Source: Clostridia bacterium
GTDB taxonomy: Bacteria > Bacillota > Peptococcia > Peptococcales > SKKY01
Direction: 5' to 3'
DNA: 41,820 bases
Assembly (NCBI GenBank): GCA_009930175.1
Contig: RZYW01000007.1
Span: forward strand, 1-41,820
The translations under genes and the position numbers were made by a program. Shown here one piece after another: positions 244-37,245 of this stretch. Position 1 is the stretch's first letter. Each line of letters starts with the position of its first letter. A model generated the notes under the pieces. The model was given only the letters and a program-made list of their open reading frames with translations. It was not told where the DNA came from and ran no database searches.

Positions 244-894
244 ATGTTTACTGGAATTGTAGAAGAGTCAGGAAAAGTAAATTTAATTAATAAGGATTCA
301 AAATCTGCCAAAATTAAAGTTGAGGCAAAACTTGTTACAGAAGATTTAAATATTGGAGATTCAATTGCTGTAAATGGCGTTTGCCTGACAATAATAGAAT
401 TTTCCAATACCTATATAATAGCAGAAGTAATGCATGAAACCCTTGAGAGAACTTCAATAAAAACTCTTAAACCTGGAGATAAAGTTAACTTAGAGAGGGC
501 TTTAAAAGCAGATGGAAGATTTGGTGGTCATATAGTAACTGGTCATGTTGATGGTATAGGTATTATTCTAAAAACTAAAAAAGATGGGATTGCAGAGATC
601 TTTGACATATCATATCCTCCTGAGCTGGAAAAGTATATTGCAAAAAAAGGTTCTGTTGCAATAGATGGAATTAGTTTAACAGTGGTTGATATTAATAAAG
701 AATACTTCAGACTTTCTCTTATACCCCATAGCTTAAAAATGACAACTCTGGGTTATAAAAAAACGGGAGATATAGTGAATATTGAAATAGATGTTCTTGC
801 AAGATATGTTGAAAAGTTATTTACAACAAAACATAAAGAAGAAAGGAAACCGGATATTTCAGAAGATTTTTTACTTGAAAACGGTTTTATGTGA
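244..894 (+). CDS. ribE: Riboflavin synthase alpha chain
   Basis: 216 residues, normal for the family. The enzyme dismutates two 6,7-dimethyl-8-ribityllumazine molecules into riboflavin and the pyrimidine co-product. It begins with the hallmark MFTGIVEESG and contains two homologous lumazine-binding barrels: DSIAVNGVCLT (39-49) is repeated as GSVAIDGISLTV (136-147), and GGHIVTGHVDG (~94-104) opens the second half. The ATG lies 3 bases after AAAGGAGGT, which overlaps the ribD stop, so translational coupling is likely. It is part of a ribD-ribE-ribBA-ribH operon in the usual Firmicute order. The C-terminal ~15 residues are a polar tail that the fold does not need. Confidence 0.97.
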   Translation: MFTGIVEESGKVNLINKDSKSAKIKVEAKLVTEDLNIGDSIAVNGVCLTIIEFSNTYIIAEVMHETLERTSIKTLKPGDKVNLERALKADGRFGGHIVTGHVDGIGIILKTKKDGIAEIFDISYPPELEKYIAKKGSVAIDGISLTVVDINKEYFRLSLIPHSLKMTTLGYKKTGDIVNIEIDVLARYVEKLFTTKHKEERKPDISEDFLLENGFM

Positions 895-28840: not shown

Positions 28841-28882
28841 ATATTTTAAACAATATGTATTTATATTTTAGGAGGGATCTTG

Positions 28883-29905
28883 TTGAAACTGCAGTTGGAA
28901 GATATTAAGAAAAAAACCGAAAAGATCTTAGAGGAAAACTTTAACTTAGATGAGTTAAATGAAATGAAAGTAAAGATTCTGGGAAAAAAAGGGGAACTTA
29001 CAAATATTCTTAAGGAAATGGGTAAAGTATCTGCCGAAGAAAGACCAATAATTGGTCAGCTTGCGAATAAGATTCGTGACGATTTAAATGATATTTTCAC
29101 CCAAAAGTATCAGGAAATAAAAAACAAAGAATTAGAAGAAAAGTTAAGCAAAGAAACTATTGATGTTACTTTGCCGGGTAAAGAGATAAAAAAGGGTAGT
29201 ATTCACCCTGTAACAAAAACGATTATGGAAATTGAAGAAATTTTTATCGGTCTTGGATTTGAAATAGCAGAGGGACCTGAAATAGAAACGGATTTCTATA
29301 ATTTTGAGGCTTTAAATTTACCTAAAGACCATCCAGCAAGAGATATGCAGGATTCCTTCTATATTACTCCAGATGTGTTATTAAGAACACATACTTCACC
29401 AGTTCAGGTAAGAACTATGCTTGAAAAAAAGCAGGACCTTCCTGTAAAAATTATTTGTCCAGGAAAAGTATATAGAAGAGATGATGATGCAACTCATTCT
29501 CCAATGTTCCATCAGGTTGAAGGCTTAGTTATAGATAAAAATATTAGAATGAGTGACCTTAAAGGGGTGCTTTTAGCTTTTGCCAGAGAAATGTTTGGAC
29601 CTGATCAAAAAATACGTCTTCGTCCAAGCTTTTTCCCTTTCACTGAACCAAGTGCTGAGGTTGATATAGCTTGTGTAATGTGCGGAGGTAAAGGTTGTCG
29701 TACTTGCAAGCAAACAGGCTGGCTGGAAATTTTGGGTTCCGGAATGGTTCATCCTAATGTACTTCGTTATGGGGGATATGATCCAGAAGAAGTTACTGCT
29801 TTTGCTTTTGGAATGGGAGTAGAAAGAATTGCCATGCTGAAATATGGAATTAATGATCTTCGCTTGTTCTATGAAAACGATGTAAGATTTTTAAATCAAT
29901 TTTAA
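28883..29905 (+). CDS. pheS: Phenylalanine-tRNA ligase alpha subunit
   Basis: 340 residues with TTG start at 28883. Two TTG codons follow each other; GGAGGG (28871-28876) is six bases from the second and three from the first, so the second is preferred. The N-terminal coiled coil (about 1-85) precedes the class II catalytic core: motif 2 is [21 protein letters not shown], motif 3 [17 protein letters not shown], and [15 protein letters not shown] gives a cysteine-rich loop (C-G-G-x-G-C-x-x-C) often seen in bacterial PheS. It activates phenylalanine as an alpha2-beta2 tetramer with PheT and is controlled by the T-box upstream. Confidence 0.96.
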
Positions 29906-29926
29906 CAGAGGAGTAGTGAAAAAATA

Positions 29927-32359
29927 ATGGATTTATCATATAAATGGTTAAAAGAATATGTTGATTTTGATCTGACTCCCCAGGAACTGGCAGATAAGTT
30001 AACAGCTTCAGGGGTAGCAGTGGAAGGAATAACAAATTTATCGGAAGAATTAAGTGGTTTAGTTGTTGCTTATGTAGAGGAATGTGGGAAACATCCTGAT
30101 GCAGATAAATTATCTTTATGTAAAGTTTATGATGGGCAGGATCATTATCAAGTAGTTTGTGGTGCTGCAAATGTTGCTCAGGGACAAAAAATAATTTTTG
30201 CAAAAATTGGAGCTGTTTTACCAGGTAATTTTAAAATTAAAGCAGCAAAATTAAGAGGTGTAGATTCCCAGGGGATGATTTGTTCAGCAAAAGAAATCGG
30301 AATCCCACAAGAGTTACTTCTTCCATCTCAAAAAGAAGGAATATTGGAATTAGATCAAAGTGCTCCATTGGGTATGGATGGAGCAAAATATCTTGATTTA
30401 GATGATTATATTCTTGAGCTGGACTTAACTCCGGACAGAGGAGATTGTCTGAGTGTTCTTAATGTTGCCAGACAGCTTGCAGCAATCTTAAATACAAAAG
30501 TAAAGGAACCAGCAATTTCCTTAAATAATTCAATAGAAAATTCTTCAAAAAAAATTGATATCAAAATTGAGGATCTTGAATCTTGTCCAAGATATGTTGG
30601 AAAGATTGTTGAAAATGTAACTATTGGGGAGTCTCCTTACTGGATGCAAAGCCGTCTAAGAAGTGCAGGCTTAAGGCCTATTAATAATGTGGTTGATGTT
30701 ACCAATTATGTTCTTTTGGAAATGGGACAACCTCTTCATGCCTTTGATTATGAAATGTTAAGCGGTAATAAAATAATTGTAAGAAAAGCAACACAGGGAG
30801 AAAAGCTTGTTACTTTGGATAGTCAGGAGAGAACCCTTGATAATGAAATGCTTCTTATTTGTGATGGAGAGAGACCAGTAGCAATTGCTGGAGTAATGGG
30901 TGCAGAAAACTCTGAAGTTACATCTCAGACCAAAACAGTAATGATTGAATCTGCATATTTTAATCCTGTCAGCATAAGAAAAACTTCAACTAAATTAGGA
31001 CTTCGTTCTGAAGCTTCAGCGCGTTTTGAAAAAGGTATTAATTATGATCAGACAAGGTTAGCAGCTATCAGAGCAGCACAGTTATTAGAAGAAGTTGCTC
31101 AGGGAACACCACATAAAGAAGAGGTAGATGTATATCCTGAACCAATAAAGAATGCTGAAGTTAGATTAAGATTTGATAAGGCCAATAAAGTTCTTGGGAC
31201 ATCTTTAGAAAAATCAGAGATAAAAAATATTTTTGCAAGACTAAATCTTGAAATTATTAGTGAAAATGAAAGTGAAGCTGTTTTCAAAATTCCAGGATAC
31301 AGACCAGACTTGCAAATAGAGGAAGATTTAATAGAAGAAATAGCATCAATTTATGGGTTAGAAAATATTCCAGTAACTTTACCTTATGGAGATACTAATC
31401 CAGGAGCAAGAACCTTAAATCAGAAAGTTCGTAAAAAAATATTTGAGATTCTAAGCAGCAGTGGAGCAAATGAAGTTATTAACTATAGTTTTATAAATCC
31501 AGCTCATCTTGATAAAGTTCTTCTTCAAGAAAATGATCTAAGAAGAAGTGCTGTAGAAGTATTGAATCCTTTATCTGAAGAACAGGGGATTATGAGAACC
31601 ACACTTGTTCCGGGAATGCTTGATAACGCATTAAGGAATCACAACAGAAGATCAGAAAACATTCTGACTTTTGAAATTGGGAAAGTATATTATAAGAATG
31701 GCTTTCCTGAAAAAACTGTTTTACCTGAAGAGGAATTAAAACTTGCTCTTTTAGGAAGAGGTAAAATAGCAGGAGACTGGAAAAATAAAGATGAGGAAAT
31801 AGATTTCTACTATCTTAAAGGAATTTTAAATAAGTTATTTGATGCCTTGAAAATTTCTGGTATAGAATATGTTCCCGCTTCTGATGCAGGAGAATATCAT
31901 CCAGGAAGATGTGCAAAAGTATTGCTTGATGGAGATTTCATTGGCTATATAGGAGAAATTAATCCTAAAGTAGCCGACAACTATAGTCTTTCTGGAAGAA
32001 CATATCTTTCAGAACTCCATTTAGATAAACTCATAGAAAAATGTGAAAATAAAATAGACTATAAGTATCTTCCGAAATATCCAGGCATAACCAGAGATCT
32101 TGCTCTTCTTGTTGATGACATTGTTAGAGCAGGGGAACTAATTGCTTCTATTGAAAATAATGGTGGTAAATTACTTGAAAGTGTAGAGATTTTTGATCTT
32201 TATCAGGGAAGTCAGATTCCAAAAGGAAAGAAAAGTATAGCCTTTTCACTTAAATTCCAGGCAGAAGACAGAACTTTAACAGATGAAGATGTAAATGTAT
32301 TAATTAATAAAATTAAAGATGGCCTTGAGGAAGATTACAAGGCAAAACTTAGAGATTAA
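29927..32359 (+). CDS. pheT: Phenylalanine-tRNA ligase beta subunit
   Basis: 810 residues, full length. Domains in order: N-terminal part with the tRNA-binding OB fold (about 40-150, VAYVEECGKHPDADKLSLCKV and QVVCGAANV), the B3/B4 editing region (about 205-390, with RSAGLRPINNVVDVTNY), B5 (about 405-475), a pseudo-catalytic core (about 480-700) and the C-terminal FDX-ACB anticodon-binding domain (about 718-810, YPGITRDLALLVDD). It holds tRNA-Phe and edits mischarged tyrosine. It is 21 bases after pheS in the same transcript. A strong terminator follows 22 bases after the stop. Confidence 0.96.
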   Translation: MDLSYKWLKEYVDFDLTPQELADKLTASGVAVEGITNLSEELSGLVVAYVEECGKHPDADKLSLCKVYDGQDHYQVVCGAANVAQGQKIIFAKIGAVLPGNFKIKAAKLRGVDSQGMICSAKEIGIPQELLLPSQKEGILELDQSAPLGMDGAKYLDLDDYILELDLTPDRGDCLSVLNVARQLAAILNTKVKEPAISLNNSIENSSKKIDIKIEDLESCPRYVGKIVENVTIGESPYWMQSRLRSAGLRPINNVVDVTNYVLLEMGQPLHAFDYEMLSGNKIIVRKATQGEKLVTLDSQERTLDNEMLLICDGERPVAIAGVMGAENSEVTSQTKTVMIESAYFNPVSIRKTSTKLGLRSEASARFEKGINYDQTRLAAIRAAQLLEEVAQGTPHKEEVDVYPEPIKNAEVRLRFDKANKVLGTSLEKSEIKNIFARLNLEIISENESEAVFKIPGYRPDLQIEEDLIEEIASIYGLENIPVTLPYGDTNPGARTLNQKVRKKIFEILSSSGANEVINYSFINPAHLDKVLLQENDLRRSAVEVLNPLSEEQGIMRTTLVPGMLDNALRNHNRRSENILTFEIGKVYYKNGFPEKTVLPEEELKLALLGRGKIAGDWKNKDEEIDFYYLKGILNKLFDALKISGIEYVPASDAGEYHPGRCAKVLLDGDFIGYIGEINPKVADNYSLSGRTYLSELHLDKLIEKCENKIDYKYLPKYPGITRDLALLVDDIVRAGELIASIENNGGKLLESVEIFDLYQGSQIPKGKKSIAFSLKFQAEDRTLTDEDVNVLINKIKDGLEEDYKAKLRD

Positions 32360-32381
32360 TTAATTTAACGGATAGTGTATA

Positions 32382-32417
32382 ATTAGAACGTCAGATATTC
32401 TGGCGTTCTAATTTTTT
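32382..32417 (+). terminator. Terminator after pheT
   Basis: ATTAGAACGTCAGA (32382-32395) pairs with TCTGGCGTTCTAAT (32399-32412), 14 bp with one G-U pair, loop TAT, followed by six T. It lies 21 bases before the U32 gene, which thus needs its own promoter or read-through. A TATAAT at 32378-32383 overlaps the stem, with no good -35. Confidence 0.88.
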
Positions 32418-32437
32418 ATTAAGGGGAATAATAATAT

Positions 32438-34885
32438 ATGAATAAAATAGAATTGCTTGCTCCAGCAGGTAGTGAATTATCATTTAGGGCAGCAATAGAA
32501 AATGGTGCCGATGCAGTTTATCTTGGTACAGAGGAATTTAGTGCAAGGCATTATGCAGAAAATTTTAAATTAGATTCTCTGCCAGATATTATCAAAGAAG
32601 CTCATAAAAGAGGGATTAAAGTATATTTAACAGTTAATACCCTTCTAAATGACAAGGAGCTGGAATTATACCCGGAATATTTATATAAAGCTGCTCAATC
32701 AGGTATAGATGCTTTAATTGTTCAGGACTGGGGAGTAATAAATTTAACTAAGAATTTATTACCAGAAATGGTTCTTCATGGCAGCACACAAATGACAGTG
32801 AATAATTCAGCCGGTGCTCAGTTTCTTCAAAAACATGGTTTTAAAAGAGTGGTTTTAGCAAGGGAAACTTCATTAGAAGAAGTGAAAATTATTAAGAGAA
32901 CAACAGACCTAGAGCTGGAAATATTTGCACATGGTGCCTTATGTATTAGTTATTCTGGAATTTGCTATTTTAGTAGTATGCTTGGTGGCAGAAGCGGAAA
33001 CAGAGGGAAATGTGCTCAGCCCTGTCGTCTTGAATATGATTTTTTAAAGGAAAAAGGGAAACATTTTCTTAGTACAAAAGATATCAGAATGATTGAATAT
33101 ATTCCTGAAATAGTAAAATCAGGTGTTAGGTCCATTAAAATTGAAGGTAGAATGAAGCGGCCGGAATATGTTGCGGTAGTTATAGATCATTATCGTAAAA
33201 CAATTGATTCATACTATGAAGACCCAGGTAACTTTTCAGTAGACCCAAACACAATTAAAGAATTGGACCAGGCCTTTAGCAGAGGTGCCGGAAGTGGCCA
33301 TTATTTTGGAAAATTAAGTCAAGATGGAATGTCTTGGGAAAAGCCAAACAATGCAGGGATTCCTGCAGGGAAGGTTGTTTCCTTTAAAGGTGGCAAGGCT
33401 CACATAAAACTTATCGAGGATTTAAATATTGGTGATGGTTTTGTTATTGACAGCTATAATGGACCACAAGCTGGAGAAATAACCATTTCTGGTAAAAAGG
33501 GTGAAACAATTGAAATTCCTTTTAAAAGCAGGCTTCGTTTGGGAGAGCTTTTGTATAAAACCAGAGATAGTATTTTACAAAAAAAAGCCAGGGACACCTT
33601 TTCTTCTTCAAGAGTTACAAATAAGCAATATATAGATGTGATGGTTACAGTTATAGAAGGAGAAAATATTAACTATAAAATTACTGATGAAAAAGGAAAT
33701 ATTGTGGAAGGGCAGGGGACAGTTCCTGCAGAAAAAGCTTTAAAGAGACCCTTAACCGAAGAAACAATATTAGAACAATTCTCACGTCTTGGTAATACAC
33801 CTTATGAAATAAGAAGCCTCACTGCCCATATTAAGGGTGAAGTTATTGTTCCCTTAAGAGAATTGAATAATATAAGAAAAGACTTTACGGAAAAACTTCA
33901 GGAAGCCAGCTTGAGTGAATTTAATAGAGTTAACTTGCCAGATTATGATGAGTTTATTAAAAAGCTGCCCCTTCTTACAGAAAGAGATAACAAAAAAGAA
34001 AAAAAACTTTCAGTTTCCTTAAGTTCTTTAGAAGGGGTAAAGGCCGCTATTGAAGGTGGAGCAGATATAATTTATCTTTATCTTGAAACATTAAGAAACT
34101 TTAAAAAGCTTTCTGAAAAAGATATTTCAGAAGCTATTGAGTTATGTGAAAACAAATGTGAACTTAATTTTATAATTCCTGGAATAATTAAAGAAGGTCA
34201 GCTTGATTATTATAAAAACTTAATAAAAAATATTTATTCAGCTGGAGGTAAAAATTTTTCAGTAGCTAACCTCTCCGGTTTATCTTTATTAGATAATATT
34301 TCACCAGAAATCAATGGAGAATATACTTTAAATACCTTTAATTCCTGGGCAATTGATTTATTTGAAAGAGAAGGGGTTCGAAGGATCACTTTATCACCAG
34401 AACTATCATTAGATCAAATAAATAACATAAATAATAGTGAAATTGAAAAGGAAGTCTTAATTCAAGGTAATTTCCCATTAATAACTACTGAATATTGCGT
34501 ATTGGAATCATCAGGTTATTGTTTGAAAAAGAATAAGTCACCAGAAGTATCCTGCAGTGACAGCCATTTCTTTAAAGACAGGAAAAATTTTAATATGCCC
34601 CTTGCTTTTGATTATAACTGTAAGATGTATTTATATAATGTGAAGGAACTGTCTCTTTACAGAGACATGGAAAAAATAATTAAAAGCAAAATTGATGTTT
34701 ACAGGATTGAAGGAAGATTAGATTCTCCAGATAACATTTATCAAAAAACAAAAATGTATAAAGAACAGATTGATTTATATAATAAAAGAGGAAATGTAAA
34801 AATAAAAAAAGATAATATTGAAAAAATGTCCGCACTTTCTCCAGAGGGATTAACTGCAGGGCACTTATTCAGAGGTGTTGAATAG
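32438..34885 (+). CDS. U32 family protein with DUF3656, two tandem U32-like barrels (RlhA/TrhP-type)
   Basis: 815 residues. The N-terminal U32 barrel (about 1-290) begins IELLAPAGSELSFRAAIENG and carries HGALCISYSGIC...GKCAQPC with C169, C176, C192 and C196, likely iron-sulfur ligands, then SIKIEGRMKRPEYVA. A DUF3656-like middle part (about 300-500) follows. Residues about 522-785 repeat the barrel in degraded form: SLEGVKAAIEGGADIIYL, NGEYTLNTFNSWAIDLF, and YRIEGRLDSPDNIYQ, with four cysteines C687, C695, C706, C728. U32 proteins hydroxylate rRNA or tRNA or act in ubiquinone synthesis. The rRNA hydroxylase RlhA is the nearest known type; no peptidase activity need be assumed. Confidence 0.85.
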   Translation: MNKIELLAPAGSELSFRAAIENGADAVYLGTEEFSARHYAENFKLDSLPDIIKEAHKRGIKVYLTVNTLLNDKELELYPEYLYKAAQSGIDALIVQDWGVINLTKNLLPEMVLHGSTQMTVNNSAGAQFLQKHGFKRVVLARETSLEEVKIIKRTTDLELEIFAHGALCISYSGICYFSSMLGGRSGNRGKCAQPCRLEYDFLKEKGKHFLSTKDIRMIEYIPEIVKSGVRSIKIEGRMKRPEYVAVVIDHYRKTIDSYYEDPGNFSVDPNTIKELDQAFSRGAGSGHYFGKLSQDGMSWEKPNNAGIPAGKVVSFKGGKAHIKLIEDLNIGDGFVIDSYNGPQAGEITISGKKGETIEIPFKSRLRLGELLYKTRDSILQKKARDTFSSSRVTNKQYIDVMVTVIEGENINYKITDEKGNIVEGQGTVPAEKALKRPLTEETILEQFSRLGNTPYEIRSLTAHIKGEVIVPLRELNNIRKDFTEKLQEASLSEFNRVNLPDYDEFIKKLPLLTERDNKKEKKLSVSLSSLEGVKAAIEGGADIIYLYLETLRNFKKLSEKDISEAIELCENKCELNFIIPGIIKEGQLDYYKNLIKNIYSAGGKNFSVANLSGLSLLDNISPEINGEYTLNTFNSWAIDLFEREGVRRITLSPELSLDQINNINNSEIEKEVLIQGNFPLITTEYCVLESSGYCLKKNKSPEVSCSDSHFFKDRKNFNMPLAFDYNCKMYLYNVKELSLYRDMEKIIKSKIDVYRIEGRLDSPDNIYQKTKMYKEQIDLYNKRGNVKIKKDNIEKMSALSPEGLTAGHLFRGVE

Positions 34886-34887
34886 TA

Positions 34888-37245
34888 ATGAATAAAAGTA
34901 CATTAACAAAACTTGAATATTACAAAATAATAGAAAAACTGAAACAAAAATGTGGTTCCCAGCTAGGTAAAGATATCGCTGAGAAACTTTATCCTGAAAC
35001 GAATATGGAATTGATTATTAAAATGCAAAAAGAAACCAGTGAGGCTGTTTTAGTAAGAAGATATGATGGATCCATGCCTTTAGGAGGAATAGTTGATACC
35101 TTTGATTCACTGGGCCTTGCAGAAAAAGGTGGTATTTTAAATCCAGAAGAAATTGGTAAAGTGCGGGAAAATCTTTATGCAGCAAAAAATATTGTAGTTT
35201 TTCTGAACAGGAAACTTCAATATGAAATACCCTTGCTAAGAGAAAGAGGAGAAGGAATTGTTCCTTTAAAAGATCTTGAAAAAGAAATTGACGGAATAAT
35301 AGATGAAGAAAATCAAATTAAAGATTCTGCTTCAGATACCCTGTGGAATATCAGAAGAAAGAAAAAAGCACTTAATGAAAGAATCAAAAGCAAACTAGAT
35401 AGTATTGTAAGAAACTCAAATTCATCCAAATACCTTCAGGAATCTATTGTAACTTCCAGACAGGGAAGATATGTAGTTCCCGTTAAAATCGAGTATCGTC
35501 AGCATGTTCCTGGCATAGTACATGATCAGTCATCTAGTGGAGCAACTTTGTTTATTGAGCCAGCAGCAGTAGTTGAGTTCAATAATGATTTAAAAAAACT
35601 GGAACTGCAGGAGCAAGAAGAAATATCAAGAATACTTCTGGAAATTTCAGGGAAAATTGGAGCTCAGGGTGAAATCCTAAAAGAAAATTTAAGAATATTA
35701 TCGAATATTGATTTTATTATGGCCAAAGGTTTTTTAAGTACAGAACTTGAAGCTGTTGAACCTGAAATAAATTCATATCAAAAGATGAAAGTAAATAAAG
35801 GAAGACACCCTCTGATTGACATAAAAGAGGTTGTGCCTATAAGCTTTGATCTTGGTTATGACTTCGATGCCTTAATCATTACTGGTCCAAACACAGGGGG
35901 GAAAACCGTAACTATTAAAACAGCGGGACTTTTTGCGTTGATGGCTCAAAGCGGATTGCATCTTCCGGCAGACAAAGCTGAAATGGGTATTTTTGATAAA
36001 GTATATTGTGATATTGGTGATGAACAAAGTATTGAACAATCATTAAGCACATTTTCTTCTCACATGAAAAATATTGTCCATATAATTGAAAATACTGATT
36101 ACAAAACTCTAGTGCTTCTGGATGAGCTAGGTGCAGGTACAGATCCTTCTGAAGGTGCGAATCTTGCGATTTCAATAATTAAATTTTTTATGAAAAAGAA
36201 AGCAAAAATTATTGCAACTACTCACTACAGTGATTTAAAAATATTTGCATATAATACAGAAAGAGTAGAAAATGCTTCTGTAGAGTTTGATACTGTTAGT
36301 TTAAGACCTACCTATAAACTTTTGGTGGGTATTCCCGGAAAAAGTTATGCTTTAGAAATAGCGAAAAGGCTTGGATTGAATTATGAGATAATTAATGATG
36401 CTAAGAGTATGGTTAGCGATGATGACCAAGATGTTTCTGGACTAATTGAAAAACTGGAAAAAGATGCCTTTTATGGTGAAAGAAATCTTGAAGAAACAAA
36501 AATAAAACTTGCCCATGCAGAAGCAAAACTTTTAGAAGCTGAAGTGCTTAAGAAAAATCTTATTGAACGAGAAGAGAAAATAATTAAAAAAGCAGAAGAA
36601 GAAGCCTACAGAATTATAAGAAGTGCTAAAACTGAAGCGAACGAAAAAATAAAAGAAATAAAAGAATTGTTGCAGCAAGATAAAGAAAAAGCAATGGCTG
36701 CGGCGAATTCTTTTAGGAAAGATTTGGAAGAAACAGAAGGTGCTTTATATAAAAATATTACAAAAGGAAGCAGAATACAGGAAATAATAACTACTGAAAA
36801 CCTGCTCCCCGGAACAGAAGTCTTTGTCCCTAAGTTTAATCAAAAGGGAATTGTGTCTGAAGTTATGGATGATGAAGCTTATGTGCAATTGGGAATAATG
36901 AAAATGAAGTTAAAGAAAAGTGATCTGACAATACCAAAAAATAAAGATCAAAAGAAAGAAAGAACAGGTATCACAAAAATTAAAGATGAGAAAACTATGG
37001 CTATTAAAACTGAAATAGATTTAAGAGGCCTGACTGTAGAAGAAGCAATTTCTGAGGTAGATAAGTATCTTGACGATGCTAAAATTGCAGGTTTAAACTC
37101 TGTTTCTTTAATTCATGGGAAAGGAACCGGAGCTCTACGCTCTGGACTTAATGAATTTTTAAGAGGCCATCATTTTGTAAAAACAAGCAGAATAGGGGAC
37201 TCCCGAGAAGGTGGACATGGAGTCACTGTAGTTGAAATTAAATAA
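34888..37245 (+). CDS. mutS2: Endonuclease MutS2 (ribosome-splitting/Smr)
   Basis: 785 residues. Core and lever domains (about 1-310) lead to the ATPase with Walker A GPNTGGKT (333-340), LSTFSSHMKNI signature-like segment, Walker B LVLLDELGAGTDPSEGANLA and THYSDLK. A coiled coil (about 515-630), a KOW-like patch (LLPGTEVFVPKFNQKG), then the C-terminal Smr nuclease domain (about 705-785) with EIDLRGLTVEEAI, LIHGKGTGALRSGL and GDSREGGHGVTVVEI. No MutS mismatch-binding domain I is present, as expected. MutS2 has been shown to suppress recombination and, in B. subtilis, to act on collided ribosomes. It starts 2 bases after the U32 gene. Confidence 0.96.
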   Translation: MNKSTLTKLEYYKIIEKLKQKCGSQLGKDIAEKLYPETNMELIIKMQKETSEAVLVRRYDGSMPLGGIVDTFDSLGLAEKGGILNPEEIGKVRENLYAAKNIVVFLNRKLQYEIPLLRERGEGIVPLKDLEKEIDGIIDEENQIKDSASDTLWNIRRKKKALNERIKSKLDSIVRNSNSSKYLQESIVTSRQGRYVVPVKIEYRQHVPGIVHDQSSSGATLFIEPAAVVEFNNDLKKLELQEQEEISRILLEISGKIGAQGEILKENLRILSNIDFIMAKGFLSTELEAVEPEINSYQKMKVNKGRHPLIDIKEVVPISFDLGYDFDALIITGPNTGGKTVTIKTAGLFALMAQSGLHLPADKAEMGIFDKVYCDIGDEQSIEQSLSTFSSHMKNIVHIIENTDYKTLVLLDELGAGTDPSEGANLAISIIKFFMKKKAKIIATTHYSDLKIFAYNTERVENASVEFDTVSLRPTYKLLVGIPGKSYALEIAKRLGLNYEIINDAKSMVSDDDQDVSGLIEKLEKDAFYGERNLEETKIKLAHAEAKLLEAEVLKKNLIEREEKIIKKAEEEAYRIIRSAKTEANEKIKEIKELLQQDKEKAMAAANSFRKDLEETEGALYKNITKGSRIQEIITTENLLPGTEVFVPKFNQKGIVSEVMDDEAYVQLGIMKMKLKKSDLTIPKNKDQKKERTGITKIKDEKTMAIKTEIDLRGLTVEEAISEVDKYLDDAKIAGLNSVSLIHGKGTGALRSGLNEFLRGHHFVKTSRIGDSREGGHGVTVVEIK

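Follow-up and report, generated by a model that had tools for sequence, protein, structure and literature searches.

The question raised by this locus is whether a protein with two U32 barrels in a single chain carries two cysteine-ligated metal sites, and how its halves would then share the work. The window, meaning the whole stretch of 41,820 nucleotides that was analysed, comes from a Clostridia bacterium (contig RZYW01000007.1) and encodes this protein on its forward strand with the following features:

32438..34885, + strand: two-barrel U32/DUF3656 protein (RlhA type), 815 aa (open reading frame, Pfam, trees)
32438..33316, + strand: N-terminal U32 barrel, residues 1-293, U-type, probable catalytic half (best PF01136 stretch, residues 76-292)
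32942..33025, + strand: first cysteine quartet, C169, C176, C192 and C196, CX6CX15CX3C (homologue alignment)
32990..33007, + strand: RSGNRG loop, residues 185-190, in the N-half only (119-120 of 120 homologues per position)
33551..33907, + strand: DUF3656 domain between the barrels, residues 372-490 (PF12392, 85.1 bits; also in E. coli RlhA)
34001..34882, + strand: C-terminal U32 barrel, residues 522-815, putatively V-type (Pfam, AlphaFold2, 5D88 match)
34496..34621, + strand: second cysteine quartet, C687, C695, C706 and C728 (four-or-none pattern, UbiV alignment)

An earlier note on this DNA had claimed that the C-terminal half repeats the N-terminal U32 barrel, and the profile comparisons bear this out. 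In a whole-genome search PF01136 (Peptidase_U32) matches the protein twice, at 273.2 and 84.5 bits with a cut-off of 22.4. On its own the C-half reaches 83.9 bits (E 1.3e-23), 68 of 72 family C-halves match the same profile at E 0.01, and the N-half and C-half profiles align with 100% probability over 282 columns (E 2.6e-49). The motif pairs that the note quoted from the two halves are found in the translation. A chance repeat is ruled out by the C-half Pfam score and the N/C profile comparison; a plain BLASTP comparison of the 815-residue protein with itself did not detect the repeat. The note had named structure prediction as a check, and a C-terminal fold other than a U32 barrel as evidence to the contrary; the predicted fold is a U32-type barrel. 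AlphaFold2 models, computed from alignments of 75 and 71 rows taken from 77 usable related-loci rows, reach a mean pLDDT of 93.7 and a pTM of 0.92 for the full chain, and 94.0 and 0.92, respectively, for residues 512-815 alone. The C-half superimposes on the U32 structure 5D88 with Z 15.0 over 198 residues at 3.6 A, at rank 9 of a VIA realignment in which unrelated TIM barrels score near 5D88. In Foldseek, 5D88 ranks second for the full chain (E 1.6e-6) and is absent from the top 50 for the C-half, where CutC and other TIM barrels are present; a sequence search of solved structures returned no real relative. Since Pfam, the N/C profile comparison, AlphaFold2 and the 5D88 match agree, the observation of a second U32 barrel following a DUF3656 linker is sound.

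Conservation was assessed in a sample of 120 aligned sequences. A single-protein query returned no related loci, and an alignment query returned at least 80. Among 60 genomes searched, the window's own included, 52 gave some match, and 38 gave one match running from residues 1-5 to 814-815. A homologue was present at 126 loci; short ones (L034, L049, L050, L116 and L120) and those with ambiguous letters (L048 and L065) were excluded, and the remainder plus the window make up the 120 rows, i.e., the window, 42 sequences from related genomes and 77 from named genome contigs, with methanogens and an Armatimonadetes record taken in.

By its sequence, the window protein is a member of the RlhA family (23S rRNA C2501 hydroxylase), because its N-terminal barrel is placed there in the tree and its scores against the NCBIfam models of TrhP (274.6 vs 534 bits), UbiU (231.8 vs 440 bits) and UbiV (74 vs 275 bits) fall far below the cut-offs. 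The U32 barrel is followed by DUF3656 (PF12392 at residues 372-490), which is the RlhA layout; this linker, which marks the family, had been missed in the earlier note. The maximum-likelihood tree of N-terminal barrels comprises 56 rows (42 of the 120 two-barrel, 7 of 10 E. coli-type and 7 of 8 outgroup sequences) and leaves out UbiU, which the FastTree tree included. In it, the window protein is placed with E. coli RlhA and away from TrhP and other U32 proteins (outgroup branch 97/86), DUF3656 being common to the window protein and E. coli RlhA. The seven E. coli-type sequences fall into one clade (100/100) nested in the two-barrel DUF3656 family and adjoin L043 and L045 with 98/98 support; TrhP, a Paenibacillus TrhP2-like protein and a separate 414-residue U32 protein of the window's genome lie outside that family. 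The two-barrel rows grouped without E. coli RlhA in 0% of 200 bootstrap trees, from a bootstrap that had not settled.

The single chain had been presented as a novelty, on the grounds that known U32 pairs are two proteins. This overlooks the RlhA1 and RlhA2 groups of Kimura et al. 2017, which, according to the accessible text of PMC6747719 and PMC6599085, are mostly two domains of the same proteins, so that, as in the window protein, there are two U32 domains per chain. Because such chains are already in print, the single chain does not count as new, and the window protein is an unremarkable member of an established family of two-domain proteins. In the accessible portions of the same sources, U32 families are given four-cysteine motifs, and a second RlhA quartet with mobile positions goes unmentioned; the literature searched contained no mention of it either, although an earlier description may exist. 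What seems to be new here, as far as the alignments indicate, is that the cysteines of the second barrel form a conserved four-residue site, which seemingly extends to E. coli RlhA. Another kind of single-chain two-barrel U32 protein, of about 640-750 residues, was also encountered (L143, L146, L149 and L049). Its inter-barrel space is too short for DUF3656, judged by length, and inspection of the C-half loop reveals four cysteines in two of them (L143 and L049) and no cysteine in the other two (L146 and L149).

The cysteines of both halves lie where the earlier note had placed them (169/176/192/196 and 687/695/706/728). In the N-terminal barrel each of the four is cysteine in 120 of 120 homologues, and their CX6CX15CX3C spacing matches the published U32 motif (PMC6747719). 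E161, C169 and C176, which are reported to be required for ho5C2501 in E. coli RlhA (PMC6599085), are present in the window protein and in 120/120 homologues. E143, E161, K234, E236 and R238 are likewise each found in 120/120, and the RSGNRG loop has no counterpart in the C-half alignments.

The second quartet behaves differently at the level of single positions: cysteine occupies position 687 in 112 of the 120 rows, 706 in 103, 702 in 96, 728 in 95 and 695 in only 24, and the window protein has a proline at 702. Thus, the expectation that the C-terminal cysteines are conserved in homologues fails for the exact positions and holds for the set of four. Counted over residues 684-731, 7 rows have no cysteine, one row each has one, two or three, 77 have four, 31 have five and 2 have six. 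In other words, 110 of 120 contain four to six, 8 none or one, and 2 two or three. Independent-column shuffles, which preserve column make-up and not kinship, predict 34.9 rows with two or three cysteines (minimum 20 in 5000 shuffles) vs the 2 observed, and 0.72 rows with none or one (maximum 4) vs the 8 observed. Thinning to below 60% identity leaves the picture the same in 87 rows (0:6, 2:1, 3:1, 4:56, 5:21, 6:2), and a looser count over residues 672-734, which includes a frequent cysteine beside E672, gives 0:6, 1:2, 2:1, 4:58, 5:44 and 6:9. The rule is broken by L044, with two cysteines, and L082, with three. An apparent lack of conservation of the C-terminal cysteines, suggested by the variable C695, is ruled out by counting them as a set.

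Assignment of the rows to ligand classes shows how the positions move. The largest class, 687/702/706/728, includes 78 rows, of which 52 have exactly these four; 14 rows are 687/695/702/706-like, 9 (the window included) 687/695/706/728-like, 6 belong to 687/695/725/728 and 3 to 687/702/725/728, with 8 rows site-less and 2 partial. On the FastTree tree, where support is weak for 38 of 134 inner branches, 13 changes occur among ligand classes and 5 between presence and absence of the site. Of the rows with at least four cysteines, 31 lack the 702+706+724..729 set, and 28 of these have a cysteine at 694-698; of the 79 rows with the set, 2 have one there. A cysteine at 694-698 thus takes the place of a missing ligand, C695 of the window protein replacing the usual C702 in this genus; the genus-mate L005 has a quartet similar to that of the window. 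Taking into account this set-wise conservation with shifting positions, the odd spacing in the window protein is a lineage variant of a conserved four-cysteine site, and the cysteines of the second barrel seem, from the alignment, to form a genuine four-residue site that is kept as four or none. Ten-residue blocks around C687, C695, C706 and C728 have mean pLDDT values of 92, 70, 84 and 95 in the C-half model and 92, 76, 77 and 94 in the full model.

C570 and C574 are also present in the second half. C570 was considered as a fourth ligand analogous to C39 of UbiV and ruled out, as it is cysteine in 55 of 120 rows and aligns with L57 of UbiV; in the looser count it occurs in 51 of 111 rows with the quartet vs 4 of 9 without it. 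The site-less two-barrel RlhA sequences are three archaeal records (L105, L111 and L063), three Bacilli/Tenericutes metagenome-assembled genomes (L114, L117 and L128), L032 and L043, and all eight retain N635 and E655. Outside the 120, inspection reveals four loop cysteines in a Collinsella protein (L162) and none in a Fusobacterium protein (L161). Since 8 of 120 rows and the Fusobacterium protein are without it, the second quartet is not essential for every member.

The UbiU-UbiV heterodimer, which acts in anaerobic ubiquinone hydroxylation, offers a guide to the role of this site. It combines a U-type and a V-type barrel with one [4Fe-4S] cluster each (PMC6747719), a barrel pair that the window protein would also have, there in one chain and not in two. 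Alignment of UbiV with the C-half family places its C180, C193 and C197 on 687, 702 and 706, and its N120, E140, E165 and G170 on N635, E655, E672 and G677, of which N635 is conserved in 120, E655 in 119 and E672 in 107 of the 120 C-halves. Mutation of C39, C180, C193 and C197 of UbiV abolished cluster binding, as reported in PMC6747719. Owing to the proline at 702, just two members of the window quartet (687 and 706) fall on UbiV ligand positions; the fourth UbiV ligand is C39, whereas the other cysteines of the window protein are C695 and C728. In four of seven UbiV proteins (L165, L167, L168 and L170), additional cysteines lie close to residues 220-225, roughly where C728 aligns; E. coli UbiV has none there. 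Since UbiV cluster ligands align with 687/702/706, a [4Fe-4S] cluster is more likely than zinc at the second site, and it is most likely what this site binds.

In a tree of 61 barrels, a 99/95 branch separates the C-halves and UbiV from the N-halves, UbiU, TrhP and TrhP1, and the same split is recovered at 94/89 in 41 rows after removal of 20, mostly long ones and their partners. Placing UbiU and UbiV in one clade is not rejected by the AU test (p 0.357 for 61 rows, 0.408 for 41 rows), nor is a single clade of UbiU, UbiV and TrhP-like proteins (p 0.48, 41 rows). A common origin of the "V" role for the C-half and UbiV is favoured on these phylogenetic grounds. A closer relationship of the C-half to UbiV than to other U32 proteins was considered and not established, the C-half profile scoring 139.2 bits with TrhP, 104.5 with UbiU and 68.3 with UbiV. 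The Bacillus pair TrhP1/TrhP2 (YrrN/YrrO), described in PMC6599085 as two U32 proteins needed together for tRNA ho5U34, consists of two chains, unlike the window protein. By inspection, a Paenibacillus TrhP1-like protein (L150) has no cysteine in the quartet region; it groups with TrhP and not with the C-halves.

E. coli RlhA (YdcP; L034:3782-5740, 653 aa), the 23S rRNA ho5C2501 synthase, has one U32 domain and DUF3656 according to Pfam, and no further Pfam domain at E 1 beyond DUF3656. As in the window protein, its N-terminal barrel contains CX6CX15CX3C and a later four-cysteine set follows DUF3656; in contrast to the full barrel of the window protein, its second half is reduced to a tail some 150 residues long, which in several relatives is closer to 110. 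All ten E. coli-type sequences (E. coli, Klebsiella, two Aeromonas, Providencia, Parabacteroides, Phocaeicola, Bacteroides and two Persicobacter) have C572, C580, C611 and C614 in addition to the N-terminal quartet, and the order of these tail cysteines in E. coli matches the 687/695/725/728 class. The E. coli-type tail matches the C-half profile with 97% probability (E 9.3e-11) in one hhalign comparison, made with a shallow tail profile and with one template-column option not in effect. The profile match, the invariant cysteines and the nested tree position suggest that the second barrel shrank in the E. coli lineage while the site was retained.

From these comparisons we infer the metal identity, catalysis, substrate and division of labour of the window protein. 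It would be an O2-independent U32 RNA hydroxylase, most likely making 5-hydroxycytidine in 23S rRNA (C2501) and using prephenate as cosubstrate; prephenate is reported to be required for the E. coli RlhA modification (PMC6599085). The N-half, as the catalytic half, would hold one [4Fe-4S] on the canonical quartet together with the invariant residues needed in RlhA and TrhP. The C-half would correspond to UbiV, with N635, E655, E672 and a quartet most likely holding a second [4Fe-4S] that may serve electron transfer or shape the site between the halves; this quartet would be under "four or none" selection with movable ligands. As the C-half would correspond to UbiV beside a catalytic N-half, one chain would do the work of both UbiU and UbiV. 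This two-barrel RlhA, an RNA hydroxylase with a catalytic one-cluster N-half and a UbiV-like second-cluster C-half, is held with a probability of about two in three. The earlier note had offered either a pair of Fe-S clusters or a catalytic half joined to a scaffold half, and this remains the best reading; its idea of a cluster in the C-half has far more support from these comparisons than the sequence by itself could give. A broader proposal, slightly short of an even chance, is that RlhA enzymes including that of E. coli are fused U-type/V-type pairs with two clusters, the second lost in a few lineages. The ancestor of E. coli RlhA would then have had two barrels, with most of the second lost later and the C572/C580/C611/C614 site kept, and U32 hydroxylases would as a general rule pair a catalytic barrel with a V-type one that bears a cluster, in two chains in UbiUV and in a single chain here.

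One alternative concerns the metal: the second quartet could be a structural zinc site and the C-barrel a non-redox scaffold for rRNA positioning or fold stability, with a cluster in the N-half only. Four cysteines can bind zinc too, and CX2C/CX3C-type ligand sets with movable members and occasional complete loss, as seen for the second quartet, would fit such a site. A scaffold role also agrees with a C-half that has neither the RSGNRG loop nor the other N-half invariants, and that retains its conserved residues where the second site is lost. Zinc is nevertheless quite unlikely, given that 687/702/706 align with the UbiV ligands C180/C193/C197, whose role in [4Fe-4S] binding is supported by mutation (PMC6747719), and that the first quartet, at the corresponding location, has the canonical U32 cluster motif. 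Much less probable still is that the C-half is a duplicate in decay, without a specific function, and its cysteines inherited remnants: end branches are indeed longer in C-halves than in N-halves, presence of the quartet changes five times on the FastTree tree and most of the second barrel is gone in E. coli-type RlhA, but N635 (120/120) and E655 (119/120) are maintained, the quartet is retained as a unit with compensating moves, and its four cysteines are invariant in 10/10 E. coli-type tails.

It is also conceivable, although unlikely, that the same two-cluster architecture serves a substrate other than 23S rRNA, whether tRNA U34 or some different molecule, as the rRNA assignment follows from family membership and other U32 members are reported to act on tRNA and quinones (PMC6599085, PMC6747719). 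The genome, however, encodes the separate 414-residue U32 protein that groups with TrhP in the trees, and it is E. coli RlhA with which the window protein groups and shares DUF3656. Returning to the two-cluster RlhA, the accessible text of PMC11574389 and PMC6747719 calls O2-independent U32 hydroxylation and the role of the UbiU/UbiV clusters open; if RlhA has two sites in one chain, that of E. coli included, the two-cluster question becomes addressable in a single protein and in a common laboratory strain, and the site-less members, from several archaeal and Tenericutes-type genomes and Fusobacterium, offer natural comparisons for what the second site does.

The gene is flanked on the same strand by two genes of identified function:

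29927..32359, + strand: pheT (phenylalanyl-tRNA synthetase beta), upstream neighbour (Pfam)
34888..37245, + strand: mutS2, downstream neighbour (Pfam MutS_V and Smr)

Positions 28880-37245 of the window thus have the order pheS-pheT-rlhA-mutS2, 28880-29905 being taken as pheS by position and matches. Among the best 80 homologous loci listed, many of them incomplete, MutS2 is found in 37 and PheT in 21; a tie of this gene order to ribosome work is a guess. The genome also encodes a prephenate dehydratase (PF00800), a prephenate consumer, which suggests that prephenate is made in this organism. Finally, plasmids of E. coli, Salmonella and Shigella contain a detached 3' piece of rlhA, corresponding to residues 517-652 at about 91-92% identity and including the second quartet (L171:2501-2908, i.e., OZ023075.1 131198-131605; similar rows H26-H54). 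In L171, this piece sits beside cyanide-insensitive ubiquinol oxidase genes, and a "hypothetical protein" annotated at 2642-2914 starts at about residue 564, just before C572.
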